NCBI GenBank assembly: GCA_937863385.1
Contig: CALMBW010000018.1
Coordinates: forward strand, 248,001 to 312,000
Length of the DNA stretch: 64,000 nt
From: an uncultured Actinomycetes bacterium
GTDB taxonomy: Bacteria > Actinomycetota > CADDZG01 > WHSQ01
Direction of reading: 5' to 3'
Position numbers and translations under genes: made by a program. Numbering within the stretch: the stretch's first letter is position 1; each line of letters opens with the position of its first letter. This document shows, in pieces, positions 22,938 to 30,870 of the stretch. Below the pieces are notes generated by a model. It was given only the letters and a program-made list of their open reading frames with translations. It did not search any database and had not been told where the DNA came from.

Positions 22938-24590
22938 TCAGATCTCCATTATCACCGGCAGGATCATCGGCCGCCGGCGGGTCTGCTCCCAGACGTATTG
23001 CCCCAAGGCCCTGCGGATGACCTTCTTCAAAGCAGACCAATCGGTGATGTCCTCGCCCTCCATGTCCTCCAGAGCGTCTAGCACCAGATCGGCTGCTTCA
23101 TCGAGCAGGTCCCTGGATCCATCCTCGTGCACGAACCCCCTGGTGATCAGGTCGGGGCCGGCCAAGATGTCACCGTTGCGAGGATCGATGGTGACCACAC
23201 ACATGATCACTCCGTCCTGGGCCAAAAGGCGCCGGTCGCGCAACACTATGGGTCCGACGTCTCCGACGCCGAGACCATCCACCAGAACCATCCCGGCTTG
23301 GACCCTATCGCCGCGCGTGATCTTGCCCGCCTTCAACTCGATGACATCGCCGTCCTCGACGATCTCGATCTTCTCGGCAGGGATGCCTTCCTCTAGAGCG
23401 AGGTTCCGGTGCAGCGCTAGCTGGCGGTACTCGCCATGCACCGGAATGAAATACGAAGGCCGCGCCAACGCGATCATGAACGCAAGTTCCTCCGACGCCG
23501 CATGTCCTGAAACGTGGACGGGTGAGGTCTCGGAGTGATACACGTCCGCTCCAGCCTTGTAGAGGCCGTTGATCACGCGATGCACGGCCGGCTCGTTGCC
23601 GGGGATGGGGCTGGCGGAAAGGATCACGGTGTCCCCTGCCGTAACCGACACCGACTTGTGATCTCCGGCTGCGATCAAGGAAAGGGCGGCAAGCGGTTCG
23701 CCTTGAGAACCCGTACAGCAGATGACCACCTCGTCGCGCTTGTAGCGTTCGATGTCACCTATCTCGATCAGAGAGTCGTCACGCACGCGCAGATGACCTA
23801 GGTCGCGCCCAACCTCGACGTTGTTCACCATCGAGCGGCCCACGAAAGCGACCTTGCGATCGAGTTCTTCGGCAACCTCACACACCTGCTGCACGCGATG
23901 AAGGTTCGATGCGAAGCACGCAACGATGATCCTCCCGTGTGACCGATGGAAGATGTCTCGGAGGGTGTCGCCGACTATCCGTTCCGACGGCGTGCGTCCG
24001 GGCCGTTCCGCATTGGTCGAGTCGGACAACAACAGATCGATGCCTTCCTCAGCCAACTCCCTGATAGCCGCTTCATCGGTCTTTCGCCCGTCTATCGGAG
24101 ACGAATCCAACTTGAAGTCGGCTGTGTAGTAGACGGTCCCGTCAGGGGTGATCGCTGCAACGGACAGAGCATCCGGGATCGAGTGCGAGACGGCGATGAA
24201 TCGGAACTTGCATCGACCGATCTCCAACTCGCCCGGAGCCTGGATCGCTCGCAGGTCCGCCTTCACACCGAACTCGTCCAAGCGTCGTCTGGCTATCCCG
24301 AGCGTCAGAGGGGTCCCGTAAACAGGTACATCGATGTCTCGCAGGAACCACGACAGAGCACCAACATGATCCTCGTGGCCGTGCGTGAGGATCACTGCGC
24401 GCACGCGGTCCGAGCGCTCGCGGAGGTAGCTCCAGTCAGGGAGAACGAGATCGACCCCCAGCATCTCTTCGTTGGGGAACGACAGCCCGCAATCGATCAC
24501 GACTATCTCGCCGTCACACTCGAGGGCCAACATGTTGCGCCCTACCTCCCCCAGCCCTCCGAGGAAGATGATGCGGGTCGGGCCGGCCAT
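22938..24590 (-). CDS. rnj: Ribonuclease J
   Basis: Beta-CASP metallo-beta-lactamase nuclease with 5'-exo and endonuclease activities on mRNA and rRNA. Of 550 residues. Zinc ligands: LTHGHEDHVGAL (HxHxDH), AVSHSIPD, YTADFKLD; beta-CASP motifs: LLSDSTNAERPGRTPSE, HVSGHAASEE and IPVHGEYR. A C-terminal dimerisation domain ends in WEQTRRRPMILPVIMEI. ATG at 24590 overlaps the dapA stop, the usual actinobacterial dapA-rnj pairing. With RNase Y and PNPase it supplies much of the RNA-decay machinery in this window. Confidence 0.96.
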   Translation of the reverse strand: MAGPTRIIFLGGLGEVGRNMLALECDGEIVVIDCGLSFPNEEMLGVDLVLPDWSYLRERSDRVRAVILTHGHEDHVGALSWFLRDIDVPVYGTPLTLGIARRRLDEFGVKADLRAIQAPGELEIGRCKFRFIAVSHSIPDALSVAAITPDGTVYYTADFKLDSSPIDGRKTDEAAIRELAEEGIDLLLSDSTNAERPGRTPSERIVGDTLRDIFHRSHGRIIVACFASNLHRVQQVCEVAEELDRKVAFVGRSMVNNVEVGRDLGHLRVRDDSLIEIGDIERYKRDEVVICCTGSQGEPLAALSLIAAGDHKSVSVTAGDTVILSASPIPGNEPAVHRVINGLYKAGADVYHSETSPVHVSGHAASEELAFMIALARPSYFIPVHGEYRQLALHRNLALEEGIPAEKIEIVEDGDVIELKAGKITRGDRVQAGMVLVDGLGVGDVGPIVLRDRRLLAQDGVIMCVVTIDPRNGDILAGPDLITRGFVHEDGSRDLLDEAADLVLDALEDMEGEDITDWSALKKVIRRALGQYVWEQTRRRPMILPVIMEI

Positions 24591-28039: not shown

Positions 28040-30385
28040 TTAGAAGTCCTGCCTCGGTGCACGCTCGCGACGAGATCCGCCACGGTCACCACCCCGACCA
28101 CCTCGGTCGCCGCCGCGGTCACGTCCGCCGCGGCCCCCACGATCTCCACCACGGTCGCGGCTTCCGCCGCCCTTAGCCATCTCTCGCGCTTCCTCGATCG
28201 TCTTGCCGCCTTCAACCTGTCGCTCTAACCATGCAACGGGGGTGAGAGAGATGCGGCCCTGTCGATCGACGTCTGTTACCTCGACCTCGATGGCATCGCC
28301 AGCATTCACGGCGTCCTCAACACGCTCGATCCGGCCTTCACCCAGCTTGCTGATGTGAACGAGCCCATCTCGGTTGGGGGCGATGTTGACGAACGCTCCG
28401 AAGGTCGTGGTCTTGACCACGGTCCCCAATGTGCGCTCGCCAACTTCCGGCATGCGGGGGTTGGCGGTTTCTTCGATCATCTGACGAGCCCGCTCGGCCG
28501 ATGCTTGGTCGGTCGACCCGATGCGGATCGTGCCGTCATCGTCGATGTCGATCTCGACGCCAGTCTCTTGCGTGATCATGTTGATGTTCTTGCCCTTGGG
28601 TCCGATGACCTCACCGATCTTGTCCACCGGGACCTTGGTCGAGATAACCCGCGGGGCGTGCTCTGCAACATCCGCCCTGGGCTGCGGCAGAGCCTCGTTC
28701 ATGATGCCCAAGATGTGAAGGCGAGCCTTCTTAGCCGCCATCAGAGCTTCACGCAGGACGTCGGCCGGAACCCCCGAAATCTTGGTATCGAGCTGGAGTG
28801 CGGTCACGACTTCGTCCGTTCCTGCGACCTTGAAATCCATGTCACCGAAAGCATCTTCGTCACCAAGGATGTCGGTGAGCGGCACGTACTTGTCCCCTTC
28901 AGCGATCAAGCCCATGGCGACACCACTGACGTGTTTGCCGCCGCGCATAGGCACACCGGCATCCATCAAAGCAAGCGAGGAACCACAAACGGAAGCCATC
29001 GACGTGGAACCGTTCGAACTCATTATCTCCGTCACGACGCGCAAGGCGTAGGGGAAGTCCTCGGGGTTGGGAACCACCGGCAAGATCGCCTTCTCGGCGA
29101 GGGCACCGTGACCGATCTCGCGGCGCTTGGGTCCTCGCATGAACCCGGCCTCACCAGTGGAGTACGGGGGGAAGTTGTAGTGGTGCATGTAACGCTTGCG
29201 ATCCTCGAGGGACAGGTCGTCGATCATCTGTTCCATCCGTTGCATGCCGAGGGTCACCACGGTCAGCGCCTGGGTCTCGCCACGGGTGAAAACGGCAGAG
29301 CCGTGAACCCGGGGAAGAACCGAAGTCTCGATCCAGATGGGGCGAACCTGGTCGGTCGGGCGGCCGTCGAGCCGCTTGTTCTCTTCGATGATGCGCTTGC
29401 GCACGATCTTCTTGGTCAGTGAGCGAACCGCATTCGAGATCTGCTTGGCATCATCCGGATACTCTTCGACCAGGGCGTTCATCACTTCGGCTGAGATCTC
29501 CGAAAGAGCGGCTCGCCTTTCGGTCTTGGATGTGATCGAGGTGGCCTCGGACAACTTGGCCCCGGCCACCTGCTCGACCTTGCTCATGATCTCATCGGAG
29601 TAGTCGACGAAGATCGGGAACTCGGTCCCCTCGCCCATCGCGCTCTTCGGCTTGCCTGCGATCGCGACCAACTCGTTCTGAAGGGCGATCACTTCAGCGA
29701 TATAGGCCTTGGACTCCTCGATGCCTCCCGCGAGTGTCTCCTCGTCCGGCTTGGGAGCGCCCTCTTCGATCAGCTCGAACATATGCTCGGACCCGCCGGC
29801 CTCGATCATCATGATGTCGACCTCACCGGAATCGTTCAAGCGGCCGGCGACGACGAGCTCGATGGTCGAGTCATCCTGCTCTTCGTAAGTGGGATTGGGA
29901 CGCCACTGCCCGTCGATCTGGGCCATGCGAACGCAGCCGATGGGACCATCGAACGGGATGTCCGAGATCGCCAGGGCCGCCGACGCTGCGTTGACGGCGA
30001 TGATGTCCATCGGGTTGGAGTTGTCCACCGCCAAGATCGTCCCCACCACGTGGACCTCGTTGCGGAAACCGTCCGGGAACGCTGGGCGCAAAGGCCTGTC
30101 GATCAGACGGCAGAGCAGGGTCGCCTTCTCAGACGCTTTGCCCTCGCGGCGGAAGAACCCGCCGGGGATCTTGCCCGCTGCGTACATCCGCTCTTCGATG
30201 TCCACCGTCAGTGGGAAGAAATCGGCATCGCCACGCGGAGCGGAAGATGTGCCGGTTGCCAGGACTGTGGTTTCACCGGTGGATGCAAGTACTGCGCCGT
30301 TAGCGAGTCCGGCAAGCCTGCCGGTCTCGAAACGGAATACGACGTCACCGATCTTTCGTTCGACGACTTTCGGTTCTGGTTTCAA
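28040..30385 (-). CDS. pnp: Polyribonucleotide nucleotidyltransferase (PNPase)
   Basis: Phosphorolytic 3'-5' exoribonuclease and polymerase, 781 residues: two RNase PH domains (FFPLTVDIEERMYAAGKIPGGFFRREG and the second around YNFPPYSTGEAGFMRGPKRREIGHG), a KH domain (IGEVIGPKGKNINMI) and an S1 domain. The tail is an RGG/RDRGG-rich repeat likely to bind RNA. The start is a TTG at 30385, with AAGGAGG 6 nt before it. That Shine-Dalgarno is one arm of a perfect inverted repeat, suggesting translational control (separate entry). It follows rpsO, as in most bacteria. Confidence 0.97.
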   Translation of the reverse strand: MKPEPKVVERKIGDVVFRFETGRLAGLANGAVLASTGETTVLATGTSSAPRGDADFFPLTVDIEERMYAAGKIPGGFFRREGKASEKATLLCRLIDRPLRPAFPDGFRNEVHVVGTILAVDNSNPMDIIAVNAASAALAISDIPFDGPIGCVRMAQIDGQWRPNPTYEEQDDSTIELVVAGRLNDSGEVDIMMIEAGGSEHMFELIEEGAPKPDEETLAGGIEESKAYIAEVIALQNELVAIAGKPKSAMGEGTEFPIFVDYSDEIMSKVEQVAGAKLSEATSITSKTERRAALSEISAEVMNALVEEYPDDAKQISNAVRSLTKKIVRKRIIEENKRLDGRPTDQVRPIWIETSVLPRVHGSAVFTRGETQALTVVTLGMQRMEQMIDDLSLEDRKRYMHHYNFPPYSTGEAGFMRGPKRREIGHGALAEKAILPVVPNPEDFPYALRVVTEIMSSNGSTSMASVCGSSLALMDAGVPMRGGKHVSGVAMGLIAEGDKYVPLTDILGDEDAFGDMDFKVAGTDEVVTALQLDTKISGVPADVLREALMAAKKARLHILGIMNEALPQPRADVAEHAPRVISTKVPVDKIGEVIGPKGKNINMITQETGVEIDIDDDGTIRIGSTDQASAERARQMIEETANPRMPEVGERTLGTVVKTTTFGAFVNIAPNRDGLVHISKLGEGRIERVEDAVNAGDAIEVEVTDVDRQGRISLTPVAWLERQVEGGKTIEEAREMAKGGGSRDRGGDRGGRGGRDRGGDRGGRGGDRGGSRRERAPRQDF

Positions 30386-30392
30386 ACTATGC

Positions 30393-30446
30393 CTCCTTAT
30401 AGGAACTTGCAGACGCTGAAGGCGCGCTGCGTACGTCTATAAGGAG
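30393..30446 (-). promoter_or_regulatory. pnp leader: stem sequestering the ribosome-binding site
   Basis: Perfect 10-bp arms CTCCTTATAG and CTATAAGGAG (30437-30446 and 30393-30402 on the plus strand) flank a 34-nt loop. On the pnp mRNA the second arm contains the AAGGAG Shine-Dalgarno. The loop can form an inner GCAGCGC/GCG-U-CTGC stem. A hairpin of this kind in the pnp leader is the known site of PNPase autocontrol in enterobacteria; here the sequence is unrelated but the layout is similar. Confidence 0.65.
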
Positions 30447-30600
30447 AGAGCCAGCCGGGCCGATCATCAGTGGGAAGACCACCGACGGCATGCAACGCCG
30501 ATGATGGACTTGCGACTGAGAACCGGCCTACCGAGCCGGCGCTCCCCTTCAGGTCTTACTTCTTTGGGATCGTGGGCGGCTCCTTTCCAGATCCGGATCG

Positions 30601-30870
30601 CTACCTGCGCAGCCCGAGCTTCGCGATCAGGTCGCGGTAGCGGTTGATGTCCTCGCGCTTTAGGTACTCGAGCAAGCGGCGGCGGCGGCCGACCATCCGA
30701 AGCAGGCCGCGGCGGGAGTGATGGTCCTTGGGATGGGTCTTGAGGTGCTCGGTAAGCTCGGCGATCTTCTTGGAGAGCAGGGCAACTTGGACCTCAGGTG
30801 AACCAGTGTCGCCGTCGCTACGAGCGTGTTCGGTGATGAGTTCGGTCTTTTGTTCCTTGAGCAGTGCCAT
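30601..30870 (-). CDS. rpsO: 30S ribosomal protein S15
   Basis: An 89-residue primary 16S rRNA-binding protein. The conserved S15 core [36 protein letters not shown] and [17 protein letters not shown] are complete. ATG at 30870. It precedes pnp by 215 nt. Confidence 0.97.

Follow-up and report, generated by a model that had tools for sequence, protein, structure and literature searches.

The leader of pnp described here is predicted to form two mutually exclusive stems, one of which holds the Shine–Dalgarno sequence (SD) of the gene. We lean slightly toward reading it as a three-strand switch, in which RNase III and PNPase would remove a first strand (A), a second strand (B) would then mask the SD on a third strand (C), and PNPase would in this way control its own synthesis. 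A PNPase-type autocontrol leader had been proposed as an analogue in the sequence-only reading, and this broader assignment is well supported by the conserved hairpin between rpsO and pnp, the RNase III gene of the genome, and the co-varying arms.

The two stems of the rpsO–pnp leader

The window, which is the entire stretch of 64,000 nucleotides analyzed, carries pnp behind rpsO with 215 nt of intergenic RNA between them. The elements discussed below are as follows.

30601–30870, minus strand: rpsO (ribosomal protein S15), directly upstream of pnp
30542–30549, minus strand: strand A (AAGGGGAG, SD-like), which pairs with B and forms the 5′ base of the long hairpin
30441–30549, minus strand: complete long hairpin, from A to B; presumably a target of RNase III, judging from cleavage of the homologues in Escherichia coli, Streptomyces, and Propionibacterium acnes
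30457–30528, minus strand: core of the long hairpin, GGYCGGUUNUCAGUYG ... CNACUGANNAUCGGCC; model R1, 65 bits, with two conserved 1×1 mismatches
30437–30446, minus strand: strand B, anti-SD arm CTCCTTATAG (pyrimidines); the six bases at its start double as part of the long-hairpin base, where they pair with A
30393–30402, minus strand: strand C (CTATAAGGAG), the 3′ arm of the stem that masks the SD, contains pnp SD bases
30392–30398, minus strand: SD of pnp (AAGGAGG), 6 nt ahead of the TTG start
28040–30385, minus strand: pnp (polynucleotide phosphorylase), TTG start at 30385, 68–73% identity to relatives
22947–24575, minus strand: RNase J gene (TIGR00649, 573.8 bits), mapped from contig coordinates
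1931–3445, minus strand: RNase Y gene (TIGR03319, 698.7 bits), mapped from contig coordinates

The TTG start of pnp is supported because the resulting N terminus (MKPEPKVVERKI) agrees with that of the relatives (MNPEPFSVERKI). The genus of the window consists of this one genome, and comparisons were made at the level of the family and above. pnp was matched in 14 of 16 family genomes (own genome included), and rpsO lies upstream at all 14 loci, giving the rpsO–pnp order in all 13 relatives of the family. RNases J and Y are encoded in the window, as the sequence-only reading had stated, and genes for RNase III (234 bits, above the cut-off) and RNase E/G are found in the genome outside the window.

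At gathering score, Rfam finds two tRNAs in the window and nothing else. Scanning the leader for promoter and terminator consensus sequences gave no match, which is weak evidence in actinobacteria; a promoter downstream of A, if present, would abolish the ON state. An intrinsic terminator or attenuator was rejected, as no hairpin in the leader precedes a run of T. The leader also contains an SD-like AAAGGAG (around 30577–30583, minus strand), about 20 nt past the rpsO stop and with no start codon behind it, that is kept in most of the family (L084–L095).

On the minus strand, CTCCTTATAG (30446–30437) and CTATAAGGAG (30402–30393) show perfect complementarity over 10 bp that includes the pnp SD, and an inner stem folds inside them, both as described in the sequence-only reading. 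Although a 10-bp stem can turn up when many genes are inspected, it is very improbable that this one is a chance palindrome of the genome. A perfect SD stem of at least 9 bp is found at pnp alone among 100 SD-led ORFs (at least 150 amino acids, from 304 kb comprising 240 kb of genome stretches and the window), in none of the 99 other genes, and in none of 500 shuffles of the upstream sequence. Furthermore, independent SD stems of 9–11 bp with other sequences occur in L091, L093, L155, and L158. Folded alone, the 81 nt of the SD stem are only moderately special (z = −1.9).

The intergenic region as a whole folds with −102.1 kcal/mol, compared with −81.5 kcal/mol in shuffles (z = −4.45; 0 of 200 shuffles as good), and this strength comes mainly from the long hairpin (30441–30549). 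The sequence-only reading had left out this element upstream of the SD stem. Because the 3′ base of the hairpin (CUCUCUCCUU) and the 5′ arm of the SD stem, which is B, have six bases in common (the first six of B), the long hairpin and the SD stem compete.

The cost of opening the SD was calculated for the two situations with an energy model, which represents the RNA free of proteins, ribosomes, and kinetics. In the window, this cost is ∼3.5 kcal/mol with A present, 11–13 kcal/mol without A but with B kept, and again 3.5 kcal/mol once B is also removed. The earlier proposal that the stem hides the SD therefore needs a qualification: in the intact leader A is predicted to hold B, and masking is predicted only after A is gone.

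A static SD-hiding hairpin, opened by some further factor (S1, a cold-shock protein, temperature, or a metabolite) and separate from the long hairpin, is what the sequence-only reading implied, and it would account for a perfect 10-bp stem that includes the SD. However, the intact RNA is predicted to have B taken by A and a low SD opening cost, and B is common to both stems. Moreover, A is transcribed before B and C, and the A:B stem should form first. We therefore consider a static hairpin improbable.

Conservation and co-variation within the class

The same long hairpin is present at all 14 pnp loci of the family. R1, a covariance model built on the core of the hairpin, gives a single match per genome in 21 of the 24 class genomes (18 of the 18 complete ones) and matches 57 of 397 genomes sampled across the actinobacterial phylum. 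All loci lie before pnp, both the 21 placed in class members and the 36 of 36 opened outside the class. The pairs of the core co-vary; position 5, for instance, is G-C in 27, A-U in 21, and G-U in 8 of the 57 genomes. The long hairpin is a pnp-only RNA element and appears to be a new family.

Two single mismatches of the 16-bp core, at positions 9 and 15, are kept in the 57 genomes. They sit in a nearly invariant UCAGU/ACUGA stem and are possibly determinants for RNase III or for the binding of a protein.

The predicted on/off/on response is shared by most of the class. Over 21 class genomes, the mean opening cost is 4.4 kcal/mol with A present, 9.2 kcal/mol with A removed, and 4.2 kcal/mol with B also removed, and it rises on removal of A in 20 of the 21 (Wilcoxon p = 1e-6). 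The idea of a switch was formed on the family of the window (f1); genomes of families f2 and f3 were fetched afterwards, to map the hairpin, and all seven show the rise. The SDs of their leaders differ (GUGGAGG, GGGAGG), and so do the arms (CUCCACCUCCC, CCUCCUCCC). Among individual leaders, L085, L091, and L093 respond to the 5′ deletion like that of the window and L130 does so more weakly, whereas the switch is slight or absent in L087 and L088.

The same treatment leaves the opening cost of the E. coli K-12 pnp leader at 1.6–4.0 kcal/mol. When the 5′ strand of the hairpin is removed, 24 leaders of the Actino-pnp type (see below) shift by only 0.8 kcal/mol and seven leaders of the Acidimicrobiia type by −0.3 kcal/mol, with less certain SD picks in both sets. 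We therefore rejected the switch as a general rule for actinobacterial pnp leaders.

Strand-swap tests point to B being matched to both of its partners. Exchanging strands between genera of the class weakens B:C (p < 5e-5) and A:B (p = 0.004), whereas the control exchange, A:C, has no effect (p = 0.63); the species in these tests are related and the samples small. The arms thus co-vary among relatives, the property on which the sequence-only reading had made its proposal depend. In family f1 alone, the B:C swap gives p = 0.003, or p = 0.0045 with one genome per genus. Across the class, replacing B by a shuffled version (p = 1.5e-4) or by that of another genus (p = 4e-4) makes the masking of the SD poorer. 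Within its own leader, B also ranks at or near the top of all stretches for pairing with the SD (median rank fraction 0.014); a fixed-window rank test gives a Fisher value of 8e-12, which is descriptive only, as its windows overlap.

Extensions of the stem change on both sides, being UAUAG/CUAUA in the window, UGGAA/UUCCA in L084 and L091, and CAUC/GAUG in L093, and the SD complementarity goes down to 4–6 bp in L092, L094, and L096. Within the class, the SD stem is kept by compensatory changes; outside it, the signal is weaker.

The same results bear on the view that only the long hairpin matters. RNase III would then cut it, as it does in E. coli and Streptomyces, to separate rpsO from pnp and to start decay, the SD stem would have no role, and the SD complementarity of the 3′ base would be a by-product of a purine/pyrimidine stem. 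Indeed, a strong SD stem is much less widely kept than the hairpin, B:C pairing is weak in some relatives, and neither the Actino-pnp leaders nor E. coli show such a shift. Yet B suits its own SD better than it does the SDs of other genera, with no such effect for A:C, and it ranks first or nearly so in the leader. The co-varying extensions UAUAG/CUAUA and UGGAA/UUCCA, moreover, fall outside the hairpin. We regard a role of the hairpin alone as unlikely, if still a serious contender.

The hairpin outside the class and the Actino-pnp family

In R1-bearing leaders of 29 further genera, removal of A raises the opening cost from 4.1 to 6.6 kcal/mol (p = 4e-7), a smaller shift than in the class. 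Cognate A:B pairing is retained in these genera (p < 5e-5). Two leaders possess SD stems of their own, one of 11 bp in L155 (CTCCTCGAACG/CGTTCGAGGAG) and one of 10 bp in L158 (CTCCTCGAAC/GTTCGAGGAG). The duplex swap test gives p = 0.02–0.05 outside the class, and the difference between own and foreign B in opening cost is not significant there (p = 0.10). Because the own B is not clearly better than a foreign one, we regard the occurrence of the switch in these genera as patchy at most.

Several leaders of family f9 (L145–L166), and a few others, contain, after the rpsO stop and ahead of the hairpin, a tiny SD-led ORF of 3–6 codons. These ORFs read MRTTH*, MPRTH*, MPASA*, and MRTDR*, and could couple ribosomes to the formation of the hairpin.

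A hairpin in the 5′ UTR of actinobacterial pnp is likewise known from Rfam family RF01688, Actino-pnp (Weinberg et al. 2010, PMC2864571). RF01688 has no match to the leader of the window even at E ≤ 1. At its gathering score (47.7 bits), RF01688 matches none of the 13 family relatives and none of 20 further R1 loci. Its matches, in 29 of the 397 genomes, do not overlap the 57 genomes with R1. At the thresholds used, most of the 397 sampled genomes have neither R1 nor RF01688.

In L035, L039, and L040, the pnp leader gives a weak R1 match (E about 1e-4 to 7e-4). The R1 and Actino-pnp hairpins stand at corresponding sites in different lineages and may be very distant homologues.

Related hairpins (GGTCAGTTRCCAGTYG...CNACTGGGAACTGGCC) also precede pnp in other Acidimicrobiia (L004–L036), and these are outside Rfam as well; several of these leaders have small local hairpins of their own around the SD. 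A literature search on pnp leaders in Acidimicrobiia found none.

Proposed mechanism and known pnp leaders

Autocontrol of PNPase is a textbook case of a self-regulating RNase. In the mechanism that we propose for the leader of the window, the SD-like purines of A would hold B in the intact transcript, leaving the SD free and pnp translated. RNase III would then cut the long hairpin, and PNPase would digest the A-bearing upstream fragment from its new 3′ end. Once freed, B would fold onto C and cover the SD, translation of pnp would stop, and PNPase would so repress its own synthesis. The two stems, their mutual exclusion, conservation, and co-variation, and the on/off/on response were computed, and onto these we place three steps that we infer: the cut (from E. 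coli, Streptomyces, and P. acnes), the digestion (from E. coli), and the effect on translation. Among leaders with alternative structures on which RNase III acts, that of phage lambda cIII also has two exclusive forms, one of which hides the start site. There, binding of RNase III is thought to favor the open form, whereas for the window we propose that the start site closes when a strand is lost.

In the rpsO–pnp leader of E. coli, cutting of the hairpin is described to give PNPase a 3′ end and to lower pnp expression (PMC8708148, PMC3848588). Works by Portier and Robert-Le Meur and by Jarrige et al., by their titles as cited in PMC3848588, report that the leader duplex is degraded by PNPase and that PNPase blocks translation of the processed mRNA. 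The E. coli leader resembles that of the window in its rpsO–pnp order, its long intergenic hairpin, and the presence of RNase III, but its hairpin has another sequence, and the cost of opening its SD is unmoved by the loss of the 5′ hairpin strand.

Cleaved pnp leaders are already known in actinobacteria. In Streptomyces coelicolor, RNase III cuts the rpsO–pnp hairpin, and an rnc null strain is reported to have 2–4-fold more PNPase (PMC10126417). The sections of that paper on this leader present regulation as a matter of message stability and, unlike what is predicted for the window, describe no SD-masking partner. In P. acnes, which has RNases E, Y, III, and J, staggered cuts are reported in a base-paired pnp leader, and the account of this cleaved actinobacterial leader in PMC3848588 includes no SD switch of the kind predicted here. 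P. acnes thereby also sets a precedent, in that the cleaved pnp leader of an actinobacterium encoding RNases J and Y is not the new instance that the sequence-only reading had expected. What appears to be new, by prediction, is the SD switch and the hairpin family.

It is also conceivable that B:C acts as a 5′ stabilizer that shields the processed pnp mRNA from RNase J or single-strand-specific RNases. The genome encodes RNases J, Y, and E/G, and B is close to the expected processed 5′ end. However, stabilization alone would not require the SD to be part of the stem, whereas the co-variation tracks the SD, and the rise of PNPase on loss of RNase III in S. coelicolor suggests that processing destabilizes the message there. 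We hold a stabilizer to be quite improbable.

Returning to the switch, we see about an even chance that the leader represents an undescribed family of actinobacterial pnp leaders in which, after the cut and the digestion of A, a freed anti-SD strand closes the ribosome-binding site. If this is true, the amount of the enzyme would be read directly as the loss of one RNA strand. Cleavage that swaps the partner of the anti-SD strand would offer a concrete route from RNA processing to stopped translation. It is predicted that losing 8 nt far upstream silences pnp and that changing two strands together restores it. Different actinobacterial lineages use different hairpins before pnp.
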